Part shown: piece after piece, positions 21,323-64,000 of the stretch
Layout of the letters: each line of letters begins with the position of its first letter
How positions within the stretch are numbered: position 1 is the stretch's first letter
Assembly: GCF_030408675.1 (NCBI RefSeq)
Contig: NZ_CP047200.1
Span: forward strand, 1,550,001-1,614,000
DNA from: Corynebacterium durum
GTDB taxonomy: Bacteria; Actinomycetota; Actinomycetes; Mycobacteriales; Mycobacteriaceae
Length of the DNA stretch: 64,000 nucleotides
Direction: 5' to 3'
Program-made: the position numbers and the translations under genes
Notes under the pieces: model-generated
What the model was told of the DNA's origin: nothing
Databases searched by the model: none
What the model saw: the letters and a program-made list of their open reading frames with translations, nothing else

Positions 21323-23411
21323 TGACACGCTCACGAACCCACGACTCAATGACATTCACCGCCTCGGCGATAGGCACACCATTAACCTGAGTGCCATCAA
21401 GGAAGCGGAAACTCACGGCATTGTTCTCTGCGTCACGAGCACCAGCAAGCAGCATAAACGGAACCTTGCCAGTCGTGTGGTTCCTGATCTTTTTCTGCAT
21501 ACGATCATCCGAGGTATCCACAGCTGCGCGAATACCCCGCTCGCGTAACTGCGCGCACACGTTTTCCAGATACGGCACGAACTCCTCTGCGACGGGGATG
21601 CCCACCACCTGATGTGGAGCAAGCCATGCCGGGAATGCGCCGGCATAGTGTTCTAACAGCACCCCAAAGAATCGCTCAATCGACCCAAACAGGGCGCGGT
21701 GGATCATGATTGGGCGCTTCTTCGAGCCGTCAGGGGCCGTATATTCCAGGTTGAACCGTTCTGGCAAGTTGAAGTCCAACTGCACCGTAGACATTTGCCA
21801 GGTGCGGCCAATCGCATCGCGCGCCTGCACTGAAATCTTCGGACCGTAGAATGCTGCCCCACCTGGGTCAGGAACCAAATCAAGTCCAGAATTATCGGCA
21901 ACGCGTTGCAGAATCGCTGTCGATTTTTCCCAAATCTCGTCCAGACCAACAAACTTATTGGGATCTTTGGTGGACAGCTCCAGGTAAAAATCATCAAGGC
22001 CGTAATCCCGAAGTAGTGAAATGATGAACTCCAGAACTGTTGTCAGTTCTTCTTCCAGCTGGTCTTCGGTGCAGTAAATGTGCGCATCATCCTGGGTGAA
22101 GCCGCGAGCACGCGTCAATCCCTGGATCACACCCGACTTTTCGTAGCGGTATACCGTCCCGAACTCAAACAACCGCAACGGCAACTCGCGGTAAGAACGA
22201 CCGCGTGAAGCAAAGATCAAATTGTGCATCGGGCAGTTCATCGGCTTGGCGTAGTAATCTTGCGCCTGCTTTGTCACATTGCCATCAGCGTCGGTTTCCC
22301 CATCCAGCTGCATGGGTGGAAACATGCCATCTGCATAAAAGTCCAGATGACCAGACTTTTCAAACAAGTCACCTTTGGTCAAGTGCGGAGTGTTGACAAA
22401 GGAGTATCCAGATGCGATATGCCGACGGCGGGAATGCTCCTCCATCTCCAACCGCACGATGCCACCGTTCGGATGGAACACGGGGAAACCAGATCCAATC
22501 TCATCGGGGAAGCTAAATAAATCCAGCTCTGCCCCCAACCTGCGGTGGTCGCGTTTTTCCGCTTCGGCGAGCATCGTCTGATACTCCTCAAGCGCTTCCT
22601 TGGATTCCCATGCCGTGCCGTAGATACGCTGCAATCCCGCATTAGATTGGTCGCCGCGCCAGTAAGCAGCAGAGGATCTGGTCAGCGCAAATGCGGGAAT
22701 ATATCGCGTCGTCGGCACGTGCGGTCCACGGCAGAGGTCGTACCACTCCACCTCACCTGTTCGGGGGTTGACGTTGTAGTAACCGGTCAGTTCACCAGCC
22801 CCCACTTCGGTGGCCTCGTCCGAGTCGGGATCCACATTGCCTTTATCTTCAATCAGCTCCAGCTTGTAGGGTTCGTTCTTCAGAGCCTCCCGCGCATCTT
22901 CCAGCGATTCATACACGCGGCGCTCAAACTTCTGGCCTGACTTGATGATTTTCTTCATGCGCTTTTCAATGCGCTTCAAATCCTCTGGGGTGAACGGCTC
23001 TTCCACGTCAAAGTCGTAATAGAAACCGTTATCAATAGCTGGACCAATACCCAGCTTCGTCCCTGGGAACTCTGCCTGCACGGCCTGTGCTAGCACATGC
23101 GTTGCCGAATGCCGAATCACTGCGCGCCCGTCGGGACTGTGCGCTGGGACCGGCGTGAACTCAGTAGTCTCCTCTGGAATAAAAGAAAGGTCTTTGAGGT
23201 TGCCGTTGTTATCGCGAACGCACACGATGGCGCTTTCACCTTTATTCGGCAACTCCAGATCCCTCATCGCAGCCCCCACTGCAGTACCGGCTGGGACAGA
23301 AAATGACGGGAAACTGCTGCTCTTTACAGACACATTATTCACGGAACTACCGTGCTCCTTCTTGTGCTCAGGCGAGTGCGGCATACCTGGCCGCCCCCGC
23401 AATGGATGCAC
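21282..23411 (-). CDS. thrS: Threonyl-tRNA synthetase
   Basis: ThrS charges tRNA-Thr and edits mischarged serine. The 709-residue protein has an N-terminal TGS domain (about 28-90), an editing domain with [12 protein letters not shown], the catalytic class II core ([17 protein letters not shown] motif 2) and a C-terminal anticodon-binding domain. The start is taken as GTG 23411 because GAGGTAGG lies 6-10 bases upstream; ATG 23384 is an alternative without a clear site. It is the promoter-proximal gene of the PIM operon. Confidence 0.96.
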
Positions 23412-55221: not shown

Positions 55222-55965
55222 CTATTCACGGTTAATTGCTGCAATCCCGACGGCGATGCCCACTCCGGCGAGGGTTACTGCGGAGAGCACACCGTAAAGT
55301 ATGGCCTGGTCGCTAGTGAGTCCTTGATCAAGCAGTATGCGCAGGGCTTGGACGAGCCAGTTGGCCGGGTTGACGGTAGCCGCGGTGCGCATCCACTGTG
55401 GCCCATAATCAAGTGGGATGAGCAGTCCGGACAGTATCAGCAGGGGGAAGATCAGGGTTTGTTGGACTCCCCAGAACAGCCAGTCGTGGTTTTTGCTGGC
55501 CAGCGCTAGCGCGTAGGAGAGAGCACCGAGTCCCACACCAAAGATGGCCAAGAGAATGACGCCGAGAATAAAACCGGATACGGTGACGTGGTAGCCGAAT
55601 GGTAGTGCAACCAGCACAATAATGAGGGCCTGCACCGCGGTGGGCAGTAGTTCCTTGCATGCCCGCCCGATCAAGAGCGACGATCGGGAAAGCGGCGCGA
55701 CGAGGGTGCGTTCGTGGGCACCGCTCATCATGTCGTAGAGCAGGTTTGATCCAGTGGCACCACTGCCGAAGAGCACAATCATGACCAGGACTCCTGGGAC
55801 GAACCAACGTAACGTCTCCCCCGCTGGCTGCCCAGATTGTCCCACGAGTAGTGGGCCAAATATCCCGAGGAAAACCAGGGGTTGGACGAGACTGAAGATG
55901 AGGCTGAAAGGGTCTCTAAGTAATGGTCTGAGTTCTCGTACACAAACGTTCCAGGTGTCTTTCAT
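55222..55965 (-). CDS. ABC-2 type transporter permease (DrrB-like)
   Basis: A 247-residue exporter permease with six membrane helices and the ABC-2 pattern: an N-terminal RELRPLLRDPFSLIFSLVQPLVF segment, and LILSGLLIPLDYGPQWM before the last helices. The ATG overlaps the ATPase stop (ATGA), so the two make one exporter. The substrate could be a drug, lipid or antibiotic; nothing in the window decides this. Confidence 0.9.
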   Translation of the reverse strand: MKDTWNVCVRELRPLLRDPFSLIFSLVQPLVFLGIFGPLLVGQSGQPAGETLRWFVPGVLVMIVLFGSGATGSNLLYDMMSGAHERTLVAPLSRSSLLIGRACKELLPTAVQALIIVLVALPFGYHVTVSGFILGVILLAIFGVGLGALSYALALASKNHDWLFWGVQQTLIFPLLILSGLLIPLDYGPQWMRTAATVNPANWLVQALRILLDQGLTSDQAILYGVLSAVTLAGVGIAVGIAAINRE

Positions 55966-56933
55966 GAGTGGTCTCCTGATTCGCGAAGTGACGTTCCGGT
56001 AAGTGCTAGGAACACGTCGTCAAGGGTGGGTGGCACAGCGGTGACGCGTCGAACGGGAATGTCCGCAGCGTCGAAAAGCGCCAGTAGTTGTGGTAGGGCC
56101 TGACACCCATGAACTGCGGTGAGTGTGATGGTGGTGGTATCCACAGTGAGGCTGGAGGAATCGGGTACGACTTGCTTGACGATGCCTACCGCACGCTGGA
56201 TGTCTGCAAGGTTCATCAGGTCAAGGGTCAGGATGTCGCCCGCATAGCGTTGTTTCAACATGGTGGCGGGGGCGTCGGCAATGATGTGCCCCTTGTCCAT
56301 GACCATGATGCGTTCAGCGTACTGGTCTGCCTCTTCCAGATAGTGCGTGGTGACGAAAACGGTGGTGCCGTAATGTTCGCGCAGATTGGTGATGTGTTTC
56401 CACAGGTTGGCGCGGCTTTGCGGGTCGAGGCCGGTGGAGGGTTCGTCAAGGAAGATGAGCTGTGGGGAATGCATGAGACCCAGAGCTATGTCGAGTCGCC
56501 GCCGTTGACCACCAGAGAGGCGTTGGACGGTGGTGCGCACGCAGGATTCGAGTCCCAGCGTTGTGATCAAGTCATCCGCACGTGTCCTGGCTGCGGCCGT
56601 GGACATCCCGTAAAAGGCACCTTGACTGACCAGTTCGTCGCGGACGCGTTGTGGCAGGCTGCCGCTGCTGTTCTGGCCCACATAGCCGATGTGTGCGCGT
56701 ACCTTGTGTGGCTGGGTCCGTGTGTTGTAACCACACACGATTGCCTCACCGCTGGAGGGCGCGATCAGGGTGGTGAGCATGCGTATCGACGTCGTTTTGC
56801 CCGCGCCGTTCGGCCCGAGGAACGCCACCATTTCACCCTGCTGTACCGCAAAGTTCAGGTCTGTAACCGAATTGGTTGTAGCTTTGGCGAAACGCTTGGT
56901 CAGATTATGCGTTTCAATGATGGATTCTGACAT
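55962..56933 (-). CDS. ABC exporter ATP-binding protein (DrrA/CcmA type)
   Basis: A 323-residue ATPase with Walker A GPNGAGKTT, signature LSGGQRRRLD, Walker B LIFLDEPSTGLD and a switch His in VFVTTHYLEEAD. The C-terminal domain of about 90 residues is the regulatory part typical of DrrA-like proteins. ATG 56933 (MSESIIETHNL) is chosen; the frame extension to 56963 overlaps the divergent gene's upstream region. It pairs with the downstream permease and is divergent from a WYL regulator that may control it. Confidence 0.92.
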   Translation of the reverse strand: MSESIIETHNLTKRFAKATTNSVTDLNFAVQQGEMVAFLGPNGAGKTTSIRMLTTLIAPSSGEAIVCGYNTRTQPHKVRAHIGYVGQNSSGSLPQRVRDELVSQGAFYGMSTAAARTRADDLITTLGLESCVRTTVQRLSGGQRRRLDIALGLMHSPQLIFLDEPSTGLDPQSRANLWKHITNLREHYGTTVFVTTHYLEEADQYAERIMVMDKGHIIADAPATMLKQRYAGDILTLDLMNLADIQRAVGIVKQVVPDSSSLTVDTTTITLTAVHGCQALPQLLALFDAADIPVRRVTAVPPTLDDVFLALTGTSLRESGDHS

Positions 56934-56995
56934 GCCCCGCACGCTAACAACCCATGCGGTCATTTCTTGTCCGCATGGCGTGCAACACTAGCATC

Positions 56996-57979
56996 ATGAC
57001 TGATGTGACGTCCCGTATTCTCCGCCTACTCACCCTGCTGCAATCGCATCGGCACTGGTCAGGGCCTGAACTAGCCACCACACTCAATGTGACAGAAAGA
57101 ACAATTCGCCGTGATGTTGATCGATTGCGTGAGCTTGGGTACAGGATTGACTCGCTCGCAGGAAGTGATGGCGGCTACCGCCTAGAGTCCGGAACTGGCA
57201 TGCCTCCACTGCTGCTCACTGACGACGAAGCCGTCGCCATGGCCATTGGCCTGCGCATTACTGCATCCCAGCAGCTCATCACCGAAGTTGATGCCACAAT
57301 CACAGCGTTGACCAAGCTGGAACGCATGCTCCCGGCGCGGCTGCGGCGGCGAGTATCTGCTCTCAACGCAGCAATCAATAAGGCAACATCATTTCAGCAG
57401 GATACTGGGGTATCTGCAGAGACTCTGGGGTTGCTCGCTGTGGCGTGCCGTACCCATGAGCGGGTGCGTTTTAGGTACACCTCTGCATCAGGCGAGGTGA
57501 CACATCGCCTGGCGGATCCGTATGTCTTAGTACCTAAGGTTCAGCGCTGGTATGTGCTCTGCTGGGATGAAGGGCGTGATGATTGGCGGACGTTTCGTGT
57601 TGATCGGCTTTCTGGGCTGGAGCTGACTGGAGTGCGGTGCGAGCCGCGCGAGCTGGATGCGCGAGACGTCGAAAAGCGACTGATGTTTCCTGCAAGAAAG
57701 CAGCGACGCAGGCATGAAGTGCAGGTAACTGTGGCACTGTCTGCGGAGGAAGCACAGGCGAAGTTCGGTCGATGGGTGCCGGAGATTGAGAAAGTTGGTG
57801 AAAACCAGTCGCGGTGGTGCGTGCAAGTTGTGGATACCTATGAGCTTGTACACGCATTGTGGTGGATGCCCACTGGGGTTGATTACACGGTTGAGGTAGC
57901 CGAACCACTACGTTCAGCGTTTCAGGACGCCTTGGAAAGGATGACACAGGCGGCTGGCGGTGGACAGCTGTCGGCGTAG
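56996..57979 (+). CDS. HTH/WYL-domain transcriptional regulator
   Basis: A 327-residue DeoR-like regulator. The N-terminal helix-turn-helix (about 20-60; ELATTLNVTERTIRRDVDRL) is followed by a WYL domain (about 145-215) with PKVQRWYVLCWDEGRDDWRTFRVDRL, which includes the Trp-Tyr pair; in this family the third residue is Leu or a relative (here Val). WYL domains usually sense nucleic-acid or small-molecule ligands. ATG 56996 has no clear ribosome site. It is 62 bases from the divergent ABC exporter start, suggesting local control. Confidence 0.9.
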   Translation: MTDVTSRILRLLTLLQSHRHWSGPELATTLNVTERTIRRDVDRLRELGYRIDSLAGSDGGYRLESGTGMPPLLLTDDEAVAMAIGLRITASQQLITEVDATITALTKLERMLPARLRRRVSALNAAINKATSFQQDTGVSAETLGLLAVACRTHERVRFRYTSASGEVTHRLADPYVLVPKVQRWYVLCWDEGRDDWRTFRVDRLSGLELTGVRCEPRELDARDVEKRLMFPARKQRRRHEVQVTVALSAEEAQAKFGRWVPEIEKVGENQSRWCVQVVDTYELVHALWWMPTGVDYTVEVAEPLRSAFQDALERMTQAAGGGQLSA

Positions 57980-58026
57980 CTGGGCAGCGGCTGCATACAA
58001 TGCTCCGCTGAAAGCTATTGAAAACT

Positions 58027-58045
58027 AATGAAAATAGTTTCCATT
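58027..58045 (+). promoter_or_regulatory. Zur-like palindrome upstream of the Opp/MFS operon
   Basis: AATGAAAATAGTTTCCATT is a 19-base palindrome with seven of nine pairs matched. The inner 15 bases (58029-58043) match the actinobacterial Zur box TGAAAATCATTTTCA at 12 positions. It lies 131 bases before the start of the first ATPase gene and just upstream of a TACTGAT-type -10 (58061-58067), so it could block transcription when zinc is plentiful. Confidence 0.55.
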
Positions 58046-58175
58046 GATCTTTGGTTGCCATACTGATAACCTGGCCGGAGTTCTAATGAGTAATCACTTT
58101 CAATAGAGTATGCGTCAACAAATCTAAGATCTCAGGACGTTATCCCCGGCTCAGCAACGAAGAAGGGTGGTCACT

Positions 58176-58964
58176 ATGTCACCTATGGATAACACCGGTG
58201 GTGTTCTCACCATCAATGACTGCACCATATCGTTTGACGGAACCCCTGTCCTCCGTATCGACGCCCTTCACATTGACGACACTCCGCGCACCATAGCAGT
58301 ACTTGGGGTATCAGGGTCTGGAAAATCTACGCTCGCCGCGCTCATTGGCGACTATCTCAGCCCCGCGGCCGCTGTCACCGGCACATGCACGCGCAACGGC
58401 ACGGTCAGCATGGTGGCGCAGGATGCGTTCGGTGCACTCAATCCCTTGATGCCTGTGATCAAGCAAATCGCGCTCACCGCTGGAAGTATCGACGCTGCGA
58501 CGAACCTTCTGGAGTCCGTTGGCCTTAAGCAAGAGCTACACCAGCGATTTCCGCTGCAACTTTCCGGCGGCCAACGTCAGCGTGCCGCACTGGCCTTTGC
58601 CCTAGGGCCCTGCCCGCGCCTTATTCTCGCTGACGAAGTCACGTCCGCGTTGGACCCTGTTGCGACCGCCGATGTTGTGAGCACCCTGCGGTCCGTGCGC
58701 GACAACAACGACGCAACACTGCTGTTTATCACTCACGACCGCGGGGCAGCGGCCGCGCTGTGCGATCAGGCCATCATCATGATCCCCAACCAGGACGGTA
58801 GCCACCGTGCCCACCTGTGCACCGACGACGAATGGGCAGAGCTACGCTCACTCTTCGGTGCGGGACAACGCATCACTGACAGTTCTTTTGCCATGACTTC
58901 TTTTGCGATGACTGCCACAGCCGAGACGGGAGCTGAGAGCATGTCCGAGGTTTCAGCCCTGTGA
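58176..58964 (+). CDS. Peptide/nickel-type ABC importer ATPase 1 (DppD/NikD-like)
   Basis: A 262-residue ATPase of the Opp/Dpp/Nik class: Walker A GVSGSGKST, Q-loop VAQDAFGALNPLMPV, signature LSGGQRQRAALAFAL, Walker B LILADEVTSALD. It lacks the usual Opp C-terminal oligopeptide extension with Fe-S-type Cys residues. ATG 58176 has GAAGGG 8 bases upstream. First gene of an operon preceded by a Zur-like palindrome; its stop overlaps the next GTG. Confidence 0.92.
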   Translation: MSPMDNTGGVLTINDCTISFDGTPVLRIDALHIDDTPRTIAVLGVSGSGKSTLAALIGDYLSPAAAVTGTCTRNGTVSMVAQDAFGALNPLMPVIKQIALTAGSIDAATNLLESVGLKQELHQRFPLQLSGGQRQRAALAFALGPCPRLILADEVTSALDPVATADVVSTLRSVRDNNDATLLFITHDRGAAAALCDQAIIMIPNQDGSHRAHLCTDDEWAELRSLFGAGQRITDSSFAMTSFAMTATAETGAESMSEVSAL

Positions 58965-59752
58965 ATGATCACTTAGCCATTCAAATGGAGGATATCTCAT
59001 ACGAGCCAATCCTTCACAACATATCCATCAGCATCGCACCGAGTGAAAAAGTCGCGATCATTGGGCAATCCGGCGCCGGGAAAACCACACTTCTTCGCCT
59101 GCTCACTGGGGCGTACTGCCCCACCAGCGGCAGCGTCACTGAGGTAACACGCGGGCGATTCACCTACATCCCACAAGATCTCGACGCGAGCTTAAACCCG
59201 GCACTGTCAGTGGCGACTATTGTGACAGAACCAGTCGCTATTGCGCATGGGCGCGCTGCTGCGAGGAAAGCCAAGACTCGTGCGCAAGAACTTCTTGCCC
59301 AACTGGGTCTGGGTGCCGAGTTCCTGACACGTAAACCTGCGCATTTGTCTGGCGGCCAGCGCCAACGCGTCGGCATTGCCCGTGCTCTGATCACTGACCC
59401 GGAGATCATCTTTGCAGATGAAGCCCTCAGCGCTCTCGATGCCGACACACGGGAAATCGTCACAACTATGTTTGGTGACAACGATGCGACACTGATTTTG
59501 ATCACGCATGACCTCGCCGCAGCAACACTGTTGTGCGATAGGTGGGTCTTGCTGGATAACGGCACCATCGCCGAGGAAGGCACCATTCAATCCTTGTGGG
59601 ACACTACTCCCCCGGTTTCCCCGGCGCGGCAGGCGTTCCTTGATGCTGACCGCATCCTCCATCCCACTCTCTGGCACGACGACCACCGCATTGGATATTC
59701 CGCGAGTGAGCGACTGGCGGCAGACGTGCTGTCCGGCGAGGATGAAGTATGA
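58961..59752 (+). CDS. Peptide/nickel-type ABC importer ATPase 2 (DppF/NikE-like)
   Basis: A 263-residue ATPase with Walker A GQSGAGKTT, the Q-loop IPQDLDASLNPALSV typical of Dpp/Nik ATPases, signature LSGGQRQRVGIARAL and Walker B IIFADEALSALD. Together with the first ATPase it forms the heterodimeric motor. GTG start overlapping the previous stop (GTGA) and a stop overlapping the MFS start (ATGA) show tight translational coupling. Confidence 0.92.
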   Translation: MNDHLAIQMEDISYEPILHNISISIAPSEKVAIIGQSGAGKTTLLRLLTGAYCPTSGSVTEVTRGRFTYIPQDLDASLNPALSVATIVTEPVAIAHGRAAARKAKTRAQELLAQLGLGAEFLTRKPAHLSGGQRQRVGIARALITDPEIIFADEALSALDADTREIVTTMFGDNDATLILITHDLAAATLLCDRWVLLDNGTIAEEGTIQSLWDTTPPVSPARQAFLDADRILHPTLWHDDHRIGYSASERLAADVLSGEDEV

Positions 59753-61011
59753 GCGTGCTCCACGATGCCTCTCGTTTCCTCCGACTACCGCTGTTGGTGC
59801 AGTTGCTGTTGGTGACCCAGATGTTGTTCAACGTCGGTTTCTATTTGGTCGTTCCCTTCCTGGCCACATATATGACGGACAACCTGGCAGCCAGCGGCGC
59901 CATGATCGGCTTTATCCTGGGTTTACGTACCTTTAGTCAGCAGGGGCTGTTTTTCATTGGCGGTGGGTTGACGGATCGTTGCGGAATTAAACCGGTGCTT
60001 CTCTTCGGTATTGCCATCCGCGTTCTGGGCTTCGTAGTGACAGGAACTGCGCACTCGACCTTTCACATCATGGTGGGCGTTGTGCTCATTGGTTTCGCCG
60101 CCGCGTTGTTCTCACCAGCTGCGGAAACAGCCTTGGCAGTGTCTGGACGAGACGTGGAAAAAGCCAGAGTGATGACCCGCTCTGAACTTTTCGGCATGGA
60201 CGCGTTCTTTTCCCGCGTTGGCGCACTCACTGGCCCTCTACTTGGCGCCGAACTCATCGATGCAGGTTTTCACTTGACCTGTTTCGTGGCGGCCGGAATT
60301 TTCGCCTTCCTTTTTGTGAGCCACCTGCTGCTTATTCCAAGCGTACACACGGAATCAAGCAGCTCAATGCTGACTGGTTTTTCGTCAGTGCTGCGAAACC
60401 GTAGGTTCTTGGTCTTTGCGCTTGCATATTCGACGGGACTTGTGGCCTACAACCAGCAGTACTTGTCCCTGCCAGTGGAACTGACCCGGGAAACAGGGCA
60501 TGCTGACGCCCTAGGGTGGATGTTCGTATTTTCCAGCGTGTTTGTACTGACACTGCAAATGCCGCTCACACGACTGTCACGCTTGACCTCCTCTCACCGC
60601 GCTATCTGCCTCGGTTTTGCCTTGATGGCCTTAGGTTTTGCTGTAGTTGCGCTTGCTGCACCGCTTGCACCACTTCCTGGGCTGTGGGCGCTGGCACCGG
60701 CTGTGGCGATGCTTGTCCTGCTGCATGCCGGACAGATGATCGCCATCCCATTGTCCCGTGACCTGGTGGGCACCATTGGCGGTGAAAAGAACCTGGGCAG
60801 CTACTACGGATTCCTCAACTCCTTCGGTGGGGTCATGGTCCTGCTTAGTTCCCTGGTTGTGGGTCTGCTGCTTGACGACGCCGCAACAGTCGGTCCCCAC
60901 GCATCATTCCCGTGGCTGCTGCTTACTGTGCTTCTCGGAGCGTCGGCAGTTGTGATGCCTCGACTGGCGCGACATACACCACAAGCGCAGGTCAGCGCCG
61001 TACAACACTAG
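59749..61011 (+). CDS. Major facilitator superfamily transporter (MdtH-like exporter)
   Basis: A 420-residue protein with about 12 membrane helices. The GLRTFSQQGLFFIGGGLTDRCGIKPVLLFG segment is here cited in parts: GLRTFSQQG, GGLTDRCG and KPVLLFG, the MFS motif A region resembling MdtH-type drug exporters. Its place inside an Opp-type import operon, with coupled translation, suggests it exports what the importer brings back in metal-bound form. In S. aureus the MFS protein CntE exports staphylopine beside the CntABCDF importer. The substrate here is unknown. Confidence 0.9.
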   Translation: MSVLHDASRFLRLPLLVQLLLVTQMLFNVGFYLVVPFLATYMTDNLAASGAMIGFILGLRTFSQQGLFFIGGGLTDRCGIKPVLLFGIAIRVLGFVVTGTAHSTFHIMVGVVLIGFAAALFSPAAETALAVSGRDVEKARVMTRSELFGMDAFFSRVGALTGPLLGAELIDAGFHLTCFVAAGIFAFLFVSHLLLIPSVHTESSSSMLTGFSSVLRNRRFLVFALAYSTGLVAYNQQYLSLPVELTRETGHADALGWMFVFSSVFVLTLQMPLTRLSRLTSSHRAICLGFALMALGFAVVALAAPLAPLPGLWALAPAVAMLVLLHAGQMIAIPLSRDLVGTIGGEKNLGSYYGFLNSFGGVMVLLSSLVVGLLLDDAATVGPHASFPWLLLTVLLGASAVVMPRLARHTPQAQVSAVQH

Positions 61012-61024
61012 AAATGGAGAAATA

Positions 61025-62530
61025 ATGATGATACGGACAACACTGAAACAAGGACGTCGCTCTGCGTGCGCCTTCATCGCAGCGGTGGGCATCAGCGTGG
61101 CAGCAGCCGCCTGCACCACGCCTGAGGGCGGACAGAGCCAAGATAGTTCCAGCCTTGCCATATCGCTGCCATTCAAACCTGTGGCATCCCTGTCGCCGTT
61201 TTCCGATGACGCGGTACTGAACACTCGCATGGGGATCGCCGAAACCCTGGTCACACTAGACGCTGACGGCAAACCACAACCGAAGCTCGCTGAATCATGG
61301 ACAACCCCTGACCCCAACAAGGTGGTCTTCACCCTGCGCGACGGGATAAAATTTCACGACGGCACTCCAGTGAATGCAGAGAGCATAGTGACCTCCTTAC
61401 ACCACGCCTGGGATGCGCCAAGCCGCCCCAAAGGCTTAGGGAAAAAGGCTCTCACATTCGAAGCTACGGGCGATCGCGAAGTCACCGTCACCTCGGAGGT
61501 AGCCGACCCGATCCTCCCCCAACGTTTCGCCGACCCAGGAACCGTGATCCTCTCCCAAGACGCGTACACAGGTGATACCCCCACAGTCAAAGGACATGGT
61601 ACTGGACCTTTCCAGCTGTCAGAGGTGGATTCCACTTCAGCAACCGCTACCAAGTACGCAGACTACTGGGACGGAGCTCCAAAACTTGAACGCCTCACTG
61701 TGCGATTCATTGAAGACAGTAACGCCCGCGCAAATGCCATTCGCGCAGGCGAAGTCTCTATGGCCCAAGCAGTACCGATTGCCCAACTCGGTGAACTGCG
61801 CGACCTCACCATTGACTCAACCCCGCTTCCCCGCGGCGTGTACTTGCATCTGAACACCAGCAAAGGGGAATTCGCTGATCCTGCTATTCGTGCCGCAGCC
61901 GCACAAGCAGTTCGCCCTGATGCCATAGTAGACAGCATCTACGAAGGTCACGCTGGCAAAACGCATGGCAGCCTGTTTAACGAAAAAGCCGAATGGGCCT
62001 CCCATGTTGACTCCCACAACAACACTGACAACGCAGCAGACGCACACGGCAAGGCCATCACGCTAGTGACGTGGAAAGAACGTCCTGAGCTTGGTGAGGT
62101 AGCCTCCGTTGTTGCTGATCAACTCCGCGAAGCCGGATTCGAGGTAAACGTGGTGGTGCGTGACTATAAGTCCATGGAACCAGCGCTGCTGGGTGGTGAA
62201 TATGATGCCGTGATTGGCTCCCGCAACTACCAGTCCGGGGCAGCGGACCCTGTGTCCTTCCTGGCATCTGACTACACATGCGAAGGCTCCTACAACCTGT
62301 CGCGGTACTGCAACCCTGAGATAGATGAGGCCATCGCTAAGGCCGATGGCACCACCGACAATGAAGAACGGTACACGCAGGCAGCAGAGGTTGGAGCAAA
62401 GATCGTGGGCGACAATGCCGTCATCCCGCTTGCACATGAGTACTCCATCAACGCTTACAACACTGTCTCCAATCTAAACTTTGATCCCTTTGAGCGCCTG
62501 CTCGTCACCAAAGACACTGCCCACTCCTAA
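61025..62530 (+). CDS. Peptide/nickel/metallophore-type substrate-binding lipoprotein
   Basis: A 501-residue family-5 solute-binding protein, with a signal peptide and lipobox AAAC (Cys30), so it is anchored outside the membrane. Family segments include LAESWTTPDPNKVVFTLRDG in part (FTLRDGIKFHDGTPVNAES) and GHGTGPFQL, the latter like nickel and metallophore binders. It lies directly between the MFS transporter and the permease. ATG 61025 or 61028 follows GGAG at 6 or 9 bases. Ligand unknown: peptides, nickel or a metal-opine complex. Confidence 0.92.
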   Translation: MMIRTTLKQGRRSACAFIAAVGISVAAAACTTPEGGQSQDSSSLAISLPFKPVASLSPFSDDAVLNTRMGIAETLVTLDADGKPQPKLAESWTTPDPNKVVFTLRDGIKFHDGTPVNAESIVTSLHHAWDAPSRPKGLGKKALTFEATGDREVTVTSEVADPILPQRFADPGTVILSQDAYTGDTPTVKGHGTGPFQLSEVDSTSATATKYADYWDGAPKLERLTVRFIEDSNARANAIRAGEVSMAQAVPIAQLGELRDLTIDSTPLPRGVYLHLNTSKGEFADPAIRAAAAQAVRPDAIVDSIYEGHAGKTHGSLFNEKAEWASHVDSHNNTDNAADAHGKAITLVTWKERPELGEVASVVADQLREAGFEVNVVVRDYKSMEPALLGGEYDAVIGSRNYQSGAADPVSFLASDYTCEGSYNLSRYCNPEIDEAIAKADGTTDNEERYTQAAEVGAKIVGDNAVIPLAHEYSINAYNTVSNLNFDPFERLLVTKDTAHS

Positions 62531-62549
62531 CTGACTATGCCTGCGTGAT

Positions 62550-64000
62550 ATGCCTACTCGACCTTTCACCCGTTTCAGTGGCGCACTTACCTCACTGCTG
62601 CTTGTGGCATCATCGCTCCTGATCACGGCACTTCTGCCGTGGTTAGGAAACCGCGATCTTGCCCTCGCCGTGTTTCGGGCACGTGAAGCTGAACGTGATC
62701 CCGACCCGGAGATACTGGAAGCGATTCGAACCGAACTCGACCTACCCACCAATCCTGCTGAAGGTGTGATGGAATGGTTGCGCGGCGCGATCACTGGGGA
62801 TTTTGGCGTTAGCTGGGTTGACCCCAGCCGAAACGCGGCCGACGTGGCACTGGGAGGATTCGGTGTCTCTTTCACCCTCGCGGCGCTATCTACTGGAACC
62901 GCTGTCATACTGTCCTGGTTCTTGGTGTGGCCCCGGCTGCGCAGCATTGTTCGCGGCACCGCTACACGTTCCTCAGACATCATGGGAATGGCGTTACTAG
63001 GCACCATCCCAGAGTTTGTCCTAGCCGTTGTGCTGCTTGTATTGTTTGCCCTGCGGCTCAGGATCTTTCCAGTGAGCGGTTTTTCCAGCTACACACATAT
63101 GGTCTTGCCCACTCTCGCATTGGCACTTCCTTCGGCAGGGTTGCTCGGGCGAGTATTGCTGATCACCATTGATGGCATTGGCCGGGAAGAATGGGTGCGG
63201 GTATGGCGACGAGGCGGGGTTTCGCCACGCCAGCTCTATCGCGCGATATCGATCCGCGCGGCGGGAACCATCGCCCCGCAAGTGGTGCTGTTTTTGGCAG
63301 GAACACTCGCTTCCACAGCCTTAGTGGAACAAACATTTAACATTGCGGGCCTCGGGCGGAGTGCGGTGACAGCCGCACTGGATCAAGATGTACCCGTACT
63401 TCAAGTCATCGTGCTGACAATGGTGATCGTCGGTATTGTCGCTGGTTCCGCAGCGCACTGGCTGCGCATGTGGATTCTCGGCCCGCTACTCAAAGCTCAA
63501 GGAAACTATGCCTCCTACTCGGTGGTGACCGCTCGGCCACATGGCACAATCCCCTTTCTTGTAGTCTGCATTCCTTTCCTTTCAGTATTGCTCGCCATGG
63601 TGCTGACTCGTCCAACCTTGGATGTTGAGGCACGACTGCAGGCACCTTCCGCGCAGCATTGGCTAGGCACCGACCAACTGGGCCGCGACCTGCTGGCGCG
63701 CTTAGCTGACGGCATGGTCTACACCATCGGGGCGTCGATACTTGTGACCGCCATCTGTGCCCTCCTCGGGTTTGGAGCAGGGTTATCGGGGCGATGGGCC
63801 GCACGGCTGGGCGACACCCTCAATGCACTACCCATCATCCTTGTGGGCCTAGTACTCGCAGGCGTGTTCGGCAGATCGATCATGACCGCCGCCATCGCAG
63901 TGATTGTCGTCGGCTGGATCCCCTTAGCCGCACACACCTCCACAGTAGCTGCCGAAATCCGTAAATCCGGTTACTACACTTGGGCACAACTACAAGGGGC
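62550..64000 (+). CDS. Fused DppB-DppC-type ABC importer permease (3' end beyond window)
   Basis: From ATG 62550 the frame is open to the end of the window (483 codons). Residues 1-300 form a DppB/NikB-type permease: an N-terminal helix, a short extracytoplasmic region with DFGVSWVDPSRNAADV, several helices, an EAA loop (VSPRQLYRAISIRAAG), and a last helix ending MWILGPLL. With only a short linker it continues into a DppC/NikC-type permease starting TIPFLVVCIPFLSVLLAMV in part, with the characteristic HWLGTDQLGRDLLAR motif. No stop or frameshift lies at the junction (63480-63560). A single polypeptide thus supplies both membrane halves. The ribosome site before ATG 62550 is weak, 19 bases after the previous stop. 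Confidence 0.9.
   Translation, partial: MPTRPFTRFSGALTSLLLVASSLLITALLPWLGNRDLALAVFRAREAERDPDPEILEAIRTELDLPTNPAEGVMEWLRGAITGDFGVSWVDPSRNAADVALGGFGVSFTLAALSTGTAVILSWFLVWPRLRSIVRGTATRSSDIMGMALLGTIPEFVLAVVLLVLFALRLRIFPVSGFSSYTHMVLPTLALALPSAGLLGRVLLITIDGIGREEWVRVWRRGGVSPRQLYRAISIRAAGTIAPQVVLFLAGTLASTALVEQTFNIAGLGRSAVTAALDQDVPVLQVIVLTMVIVGIVAGSAAHWLRMWILGPLLKAQGNYASYSVVTARPHGTIPFLVVCIPFLSVLLAMVLTRPTLDVEARLQAPSAQHWLGTDQLGRDLLARLADGMVYTIGASILVTAICALLGFGAGLSGRWAARLGDTLNALPIILVGLVLAGVFGRSIMTAAIAVIVVGWIPLAAHTSTVAAEIRKSGYYTWAQLQG

Follow-up and report, generated by a model that had tools for sequence, protein, structure and literature searches.

The right-hand end of the window, a 64,000-nucleotide stretch of Corynebacterium durum DNA (positions 1550001-1614000 of a single-contig genome of 2,786,863 bases), holds a five-gene operon on the forward strand (58167-64292), which codes for an ATP-binding cassette (ABC) importer of the Opp/Nik type and, in its midst, for a transporter of the major facilitator superfamily (MFS). 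The operon lies behind a predicted operator for the regulator Zur and is read here, on balance, as a Zur-repressed cassette for the acquisition of zinc complexes. The genes follow each other in the order ATPase, ATPase, MFS transporter, family-5 lipoprotein and fused permease, as a first-pass annotation made from the sequence had correctly described, and their junctions are 4-bp overlaps or gaps of 13-19 bp. ATPase 1 (58167..58964; PF00005, 52.8 bits) begins with GTG, an ATG at 58176 being a possible start as well, and carries Walker and signature motifs that appear intact by eye; ATPase 2 of the same importer (58961..59752; PF00005, 104.9 bits) overlaps it by 4 bp. The MFS transporter (59749..61011; PF07690, 102.7 bits) is MdtH/EitD-like with an antiporter-type motif C, and the substrate-binding protein (SBP) is a family-5, NikA/Opp5A-like lipoprotein (61025..62530; PF00496, 194.3 bits). 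The permease, a DppB-DppC fusion with two BPD_transp_1 stretches, runs from 62550 to the edge of the window at 64000 and on to the equivalent of 64292, 292 bases beyond it; the complete protein of 580 amino acids was read in L038:6551-8293.

The predicted Zur-like operator, to which no strand is assigned, is a 21-bp inverted repeat of 10-1-10 architecture, TAATGAAAATAGTTTCCATTG, at 58026-58046, about 130 bases ahead of the ATG at 58176. With a matrix made from four C. glutamicum Zur sites, as given in the accessible text of PMC2823685, and the S. coelicolor consensus, the box scores 22.7 and is the top site of the whole window. When the 187-bp intergenic region was shuffled 2000 times with its dinucleotides preserved, no shuffle attained this score, and by manual count 17 of the 21 bases agree with the published C. 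glutamicum cg0795 site on the other strand. The only other window site of at least 15 (23017-23037, scoring 20.9) lies inside a gene that by eye resembles threonyl-tRNA synthetase and was counted as chance. The box claimed in the first-pass annotation is present and comparatively backed, but the plain consensus match is weak on its own: with at most three mismatches allowed, the window has two consensus matches where 1.73 are expected, and the whole genome has 105 on each strand, compared with 45 when the pattern is reversed. A genome-wide scan for the Zur pattern yielded 49 matches on each strand, compared with 40 for its reversal, and few convincing sites among them. The strength of the evidence for this putative operator lies in the comparison across cassettes.

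Among 242 Corynebacterium genomes, the binding protein was detected in 35 and the MFS transporter in 35, and both occur together in 32 (E <= 1e-40; Fisher p = 5e-33, uncorrected for kinship), which bears out the claimed pairing of importer and MFS transporter. The order ATPase-ATPase-MFS-SBP-permease holds in 27 of the 35 binding-protein genomes, with one of the two ATPases escaping separate detection in L077 and L088, and in four further genomes the MFS gene stands convergent beside the importer. Across 40 loci, the cassette families are present in 32-34, and the next commonest neighbour family in nine. Eight or nine loci share a location at helicase/PAC2 genes and five share one at dxr/rseP (gene names assigned by eye), and some further neighbour families recur in four or five of the 40 loci. 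Since the locations differ and neighbour families are rarely shared, the cassette is judged, from these comparisons, to occupy differing chromosomal places and to be limited to the five genes. Just upstream of the C. durum operon, at 55222-57979, lies an ABC-2 exporter pair (a DrrA-type ATPase and an ABC2_membrane permease, reverse strand), which is divergent from and overlaps a gene for a WYL-domain regulator on the forward strand. Neither the WYL regulator nor the ABC-2 exporter belongs to the neighbour families shared by at least four of the 40 cassette loci, and both were excluded from the unit for this reason. The binding-protein frame looks split at L089:8417-9984 (genome G177) and L098:8119-9475 (G235), which may reflect sequencing error or decay. 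At L100:4051-10216, an MFS gene of the cassette family ends a second Opp-type operon, which has an SBP 27% identical to that of the window and no strong Zur-like box.

Boxes were scored from -350 to +60 upstream of 33 cassettes; as controls served 153 upstream regions of other genes in these loci, none nearer than 1.2 kb to a cassette or MFS start. The 1.2-kb rule was set after the result of a first control set was known, in which 4 of 182 regions lay above the threshold, each being a cassette or MFS box viewed from an adjoining gene (L076, L088, L096, L103). A Zur-like box of at least 16 precedes 8 of the 33 cassettes and none of the 153 controls; at a threshold of 14 the counts are 10/33 against 1/153, and at 12 they are 14/33 against 3/153 (Mann-Whitney p = 2e-8 for cassette versus control scores). 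Scored apart from the 33 cassettes were two lone SBP genes, three single-MFS loci (L101-L103), one MFS gene that lies on a different contig (L099) and five MFS genes that adjoin another operon or close it; within this group only L103 carries a strong box. At the usual box position of L081, L082 and L089 (and, partly visible, L080) there is an inverted repeat of about 26 bp, TATTGAA-12-TTCAATA, one base off in L082, with half-sites like those of the Zur-like box and a spacing 5 bp longer. In L101, L102 and L103, the single MFS gene of the same family has rplL (Pfam-checked in L102 only) on one side and a PorA-family gene on the other, ahead of rpoB. According to PMC6711530, C. diphtheriae has its zinc-regulated cluster dip0438-0445 at that same rplL/rpoB location, and DIP0445 is termed PorA-like in that of PMC12445094.

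Beyond the genus, plasmid records in which the binding protein has a relative (E <= 1e-30) number 530, 479 of them from Klebsiella, and those with a relative of the MFS transporter (E <= 1e-40) number 771, some of which adjoin a different importer. Both loci viewed, one Rahnella and one Klebsiella plasmid record, show the identical five-gene order, with identities to the window of 31-39% for the ATPases, 40-41% for the MFS transporter, 38-39% for the SBP and 36-37% for the permease. With the E. coli-type Zur consensus as given in the accessible part of PMC4219657, a proteobacterial Zur motif is found upstream of the annotated first gene, its end lying 24 bp from that gene in Klebsiella and 35 bp from it in both Rahnella and Chimaeribacter; counted on both strands and in shifted registers, the matches in these three are 7, 4 and 4 against an expected 0.41, 0.11 and 0.06, respectively. 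The Klebsiella cassette has as neighbours zigA (701.7 bits), hisI and a gene for a Zur-like repressor (84.8 bits, cut-off 167), and a second proteobacterial Zur motif lies between hisI-zigA and the repressor gene. The Chimaeribacter operon is without an MFS gene and is followed by a gene annotated as nickel transporter and preceded by a DUF1007-NicO pair. On two Streptomyces plasmids the importer, in one case 40% identical to that of the window, stands behind actinobacterial-type boxes scoring 19.1 and 21.9, which lie ahead of the binding-protein gene; no MFS gene is annotated in the fetched stretches. An L32 gene and a gene annotated as GTP-binding protein lie some 2-3 kb upstream in one Streptomyces locus and 4 kb downstream in the other, and the GTPase of the first locus belongs to the CobW family, with a ZigA match of 517.5 bits (cut-off 600). 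A GTDB scan, based on two peptide patterns and listing no enterobacterial cassette, kept 80 loci of 509 confirmed stretches, among which identities above 33% occur only in Corynebacterium (47-62%) and Propionibacterium australiense (36%). By sequence similarity, the five-gene cassette spans Actinomycetota and Pseudomonadota, with Zur-like boxes of two different motifs. The proposed link to zinc and Zur thus gains support both from the boxes within the genus and from the boxes and zinc-related neighbours in more distant relatives.

The family assignments place the transporter near known nickel and peptide systems. The top NCBIfam models are NikE for both ATPases (97.8 and 137.5 bits, cut-off 332.55), NF008650 MdtH for the MFS transporter (139.7, cut-off 469), NF045468 Opp5A/NikA for the binding protein (210.5 across most of its length, cut-off 600) and Opp2C for the C-terminal half of the permease (158.4, cut-off 300); all five matches fall under the curated cut-offs. 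A family profile run against the PDB gave 210 bits for NikA proteins, 136 for DppA, 129 for CntA and 112 for OppA, and an AlphaFold2 (AF2) model of the binding protein (predicted local distance difference test, pLDDT, 87.9) has S. aureus NikA as its first Foldseek match. In a structure comparison with VIA-align, a secondary look whose listing may miss families that still match, DppA follows only about 3-4 Z units under NikA, and E. coli YliB (36.7) is tied with NikA (37.3). The comparison with CntA, NikA and OppA that had been proposed as a check thus places the protein nearest NikA by profile but separates it little from other binders by structure; its sequence marks it as NikA-class.

Motif C is a signature of antiporter-type MFS transporters, and its residues G158, G162, P163 and G166 are invariant in all 21 sequences aligned. 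As regards the repressor, the C. durum genome encodes one Fur-family protein. According to the accessible text of PMC2823685, Zur is among the regulators detected in all corynebacterial genomes sequenced by then; because of this report and as the sole member of its family in the genome, the protein is called Zur here.

In the proposed mechanism, zinc shortage would cause Zur to leave the box at 58026-58046, upon which the five genes would be co-transcribed. The NikA-like lipoprotein would capture a zinc complex outside the cell, the fused permease and the two ATPases would pump the complex in, and the MFS transporter (H+ antiporter type) would most likely expel the metal-free chelator; importer and pump would form a shuttle, because the pump would return metal-free chelator outward. 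That the cassette is under Zur control, through binding of the repressor to the box, appears very likely from the sequence comparisons, and it is likely that the cassette serves zinc acquisition with zinc as the cargo metal. Its cargo is probably a complex rather than the free ion, and the chances that the MFS transporter works outward on a chelator seem about even. Tentatively, we consider a zinc shuttle free of synthesis, in which the chelator is not a dedicated product of the cell itself but is supplied by neighbours or the host, or is a common metabolite like histidine; the metal would be stripped inside, and the MFS transporter would return the empty chelator. A literature search on S. 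aureus NikA with histidine found nothing. If no biosynthesis genes are needed, the cassette could move as a self-sufficient five-gene unit, and this would explain both its differing corynebacterial locations and its presence on enterobacterial plasmids.

Several observations weigh against this interpretation. In NCBIfam the sole Fur-family protein of C. durum matches the Fur model better (79.9 bits) than the model for E. coli-type Zur (43), neither match reaching its cut-off, and the same holds for the Streptomyces Fur-family protein. Neither ZnuA-family locus of the genome (L149 and L150, 3.8 kb each) has a Zur-like box, so the zinc regulon lacks independent confirmation in C. durum; for the same reason, the operon may be a main Zur-controlled importer of this genome. 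According to the accessible text of PMC2823685, the adhA site of C. glutamicum resembles a Zur box yet does not bind Zur, and it scores 23.5, above the window box, in an earlier scoring that differs slightly from the other scores (pseudocounts); the matrix score alone is therefore no proof of Zur binding. Within the genus, 19 of the 33 cassettes have no box of at least 12, and four of the 35 genomes with the binding protein have no adjacent MFS gene. The nearest family of the pump is the multidrug efflux family of MdtH, and 8 of 9 MFS genes outside the five-gene operon are without a strong box of their own, the exception being L103 (19.1). Among the eight are the four MFS genes convergent to an importer, and their lack of a box is evidence against an independent control of the pump by Zur.

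The alternatives differ in where the ligand comes from, which metal it carries and which way the pump works. Since an Opp-type importer and an MFS pump share one operon as in opine-metallophore (cnt) loci, and a link to Zur exists as well, the first-pass annotation had proposed an operon like that of staphylopine, in which a self-made opine is exported by the MFS transporter and re-imported as metal complex, with synthesis genes just past position 64000. The downstream genes are for a DEAD-box helicase, a carboxymuconolactone-decarboxylase-family protein (AhpD-like by eye) and AhpC/TSA, followed by a LysR-type regulator (OxyR by eye), a DUF3418 helicase (HrpA by eye), NrdR and a LexA-like start; six were identified by Pfam, the LexA-like start by eye only. 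No synthesis gene was recognised among them, the CntL (nicotianamine-synthase-like) type being looked for at the locus only, and no metallophore-synthesis gene was recognised on either side of the operon. In none of the 242 genus genomes, that of C. durum included, was the opine dehydrogenase CntM (PF10100) found, nor in 14 control genomes; as a positive control the family was matched at 7e-196 in the actinobacterium G049, one of 394 class genomes. The binding protein, moreover, scores 68.5 bits with the CntA model against 210.5 for Opp5A/NikA. With core genes following the operon, PF10100 absent from the genus genomes and no recurrent synthesis neighbour, the opine metallophore was ruled out; it is refuted for C. 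durum itself unless an enzyme outside PF10100 makes the opine, and overall its probability is vanishingly small. Of the first-pass annotation, the link to zinc and Zur and the tie between importer and MFS transporter are supported, and the opine identity and the nearby synthesis genes are not. A self-made metallophore of another kind, exported and re-imported after synthesis, for instance, by a non-ribosomal peptide synthetase (NRPS) encoded elsewhere in the genome, is rather unlikely but deserves more weight. NRPS condensation domains (E <= 0.001; 91 of 100 positive genomes above the family cut-off) occur in 27 of 35 cassette genomes and 73 of 207 others (p = 4e-6, uncorrected for kinship), which is evidence against a purely borrowed chelator, and the sid genes of C. 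diphtheriae support growth in low zinc according to the accessible text of PMC12445094. Yet 8 of the 35 cassette genomes are without a condensation domain, and the association may reflect ancestry, as the genomes are related. The NRPS cluster of C. durum itself (G000:C1:38519-72704, L155-L157) contains Peripla_BP_2, SIP, a Lys/Orn monooxygenase and an AMP ligase and is apparently an iron siderophore locus; with a top Zur-like site of only 11.2, it was rejected as a source of a zincophore.

An importer of nickel complexes, such as nickel-histidine, that feeds urease would agree with the nearest models and profile-nearest structures, which are nickel binders, with the presence of urease in the C. 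durum genome and with the nickel-transporter-family genes adjoining the Chimaeribacter relative. Urease (above cut-off) is, however, found in 15 of 35 cassette genomes and 76 of 207 others (p = 0.57), so nickel supply for urease was set aside, and the operators are of the Zur and not of a nickel type in three groups of relatives, which together make this explanation decidedly improbable. It is also improbable, if slightly less so, that the operon encodes an ordinary oligopeptide importer with a drug pump and is connected with zinc only by accident. The generic nature of family-5 proteins and of MdtH-like pumps, the small structural distance of DppA and the tie of YliB with NikA speak for this possibility, whereas the profile puts NikA proteins (210 bits) above peptide binders (112-136), and Zur-like boxes and zinc neighbours recur. 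The pump might finally work inward. YbtX is an MFS importer of the metal complex in the yersiniabactin locus, and related MFS genes adjoin FecCD importers; against a second importer of this kind stands the invariant antiporter motif C, and we regard this role as unlikely, though clearly less so than the nickel or peptide explanations.

Among known systems, the closest in description are the C. diphtheriae loci dip2125-2128 and dip2162-2165, Zur-regulated ABC importers of the NikA/OppA type (PMC6711530, accessible text), so the claim that no such system is described for corynebacteria does not hold. The nik1 and nik2 loci, which support growth of C. diphtheriae in low zinc (PMC12445094, accessible text), are probably the same two loci. 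Likened by description, the C. durum operon shares with them an SBP of the NikA/OppA type, a PF00528 permease and a Zur-like box; unlike the dip importers, which as far as the available text describes them have two separate permeases, one ATPase and no MFS transporter, it has a fused permease and an internal MFS transporter. One dip importer adjoins the synthesis genes sidAB, whereas no synthesis genes are recognised near the C. durum operon. A possible metallophore locus is also known in C. diphtheriae (PMC6711530, PMC12445094). Opine zincophore loci also combine an Opp importer with an MFS exporter (PMC7438024, accessible text), and the staphylopine cnt and bacillopaline systems share this combination and the zinc link with the window operon, which differs in having no recognised synthesis genes and a binding protein nearer NikA than CntA.

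The S. aureus NikA (Opp5A)/Opp2 system provides the closest NCBIfam models for the binding protein and the C-terminal half of the permease as well as the first Foldseek structure; it is a nickel system, and the window proteins fall under its family cut-offs. To our knowledge, its operon contains no MFS gene. The pump is 40-42% identical to MFS genes that adjoin FecCD importers on two enterobacterial plasmids, loci that we take to be eit. In EitABCD the MFS transporter thus stands beside a FecCD importer ascribed to iron, and the accessible texts of PMC3251573 and PMC7074816 describe eitABCD/eitCBAD as iron transport. The K. pneumoniae plasmid pKP0937-1, presumably of the pLVPK type, carries all five genes in unchanged order behind a Zur box, but at 32-40% identity, with a different Zur motif and with zinc genes nearby, which the window lacks. 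On pLVPK itself a Zur-regulated cluster is marked (PMC2770081, accessible text). The five-gene cassette was not found described in the open-licence literature searched. Accordingly, while Zur-regulated Nik-type importers are already known from C. diphtheriae, within the limits of the texts available, the built-in MFS transporter, the fused permease, the spread across phyla and the lack of synthesis genes nearby are new here.

If the reading as a Zur-repressed cassette for zinc complexes is true, a portable zinc-scavenging unit extends across Actinomycetota and Pseudomonadota, which is currently annotated as a peptide or nickel transporter with an MFS or drug pump, and these nickel, peptide and multidrug labels would be corrected. 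What a pump does within an importer operon could then be tested directly, and the use of metallophores would be separated from their synthesis.

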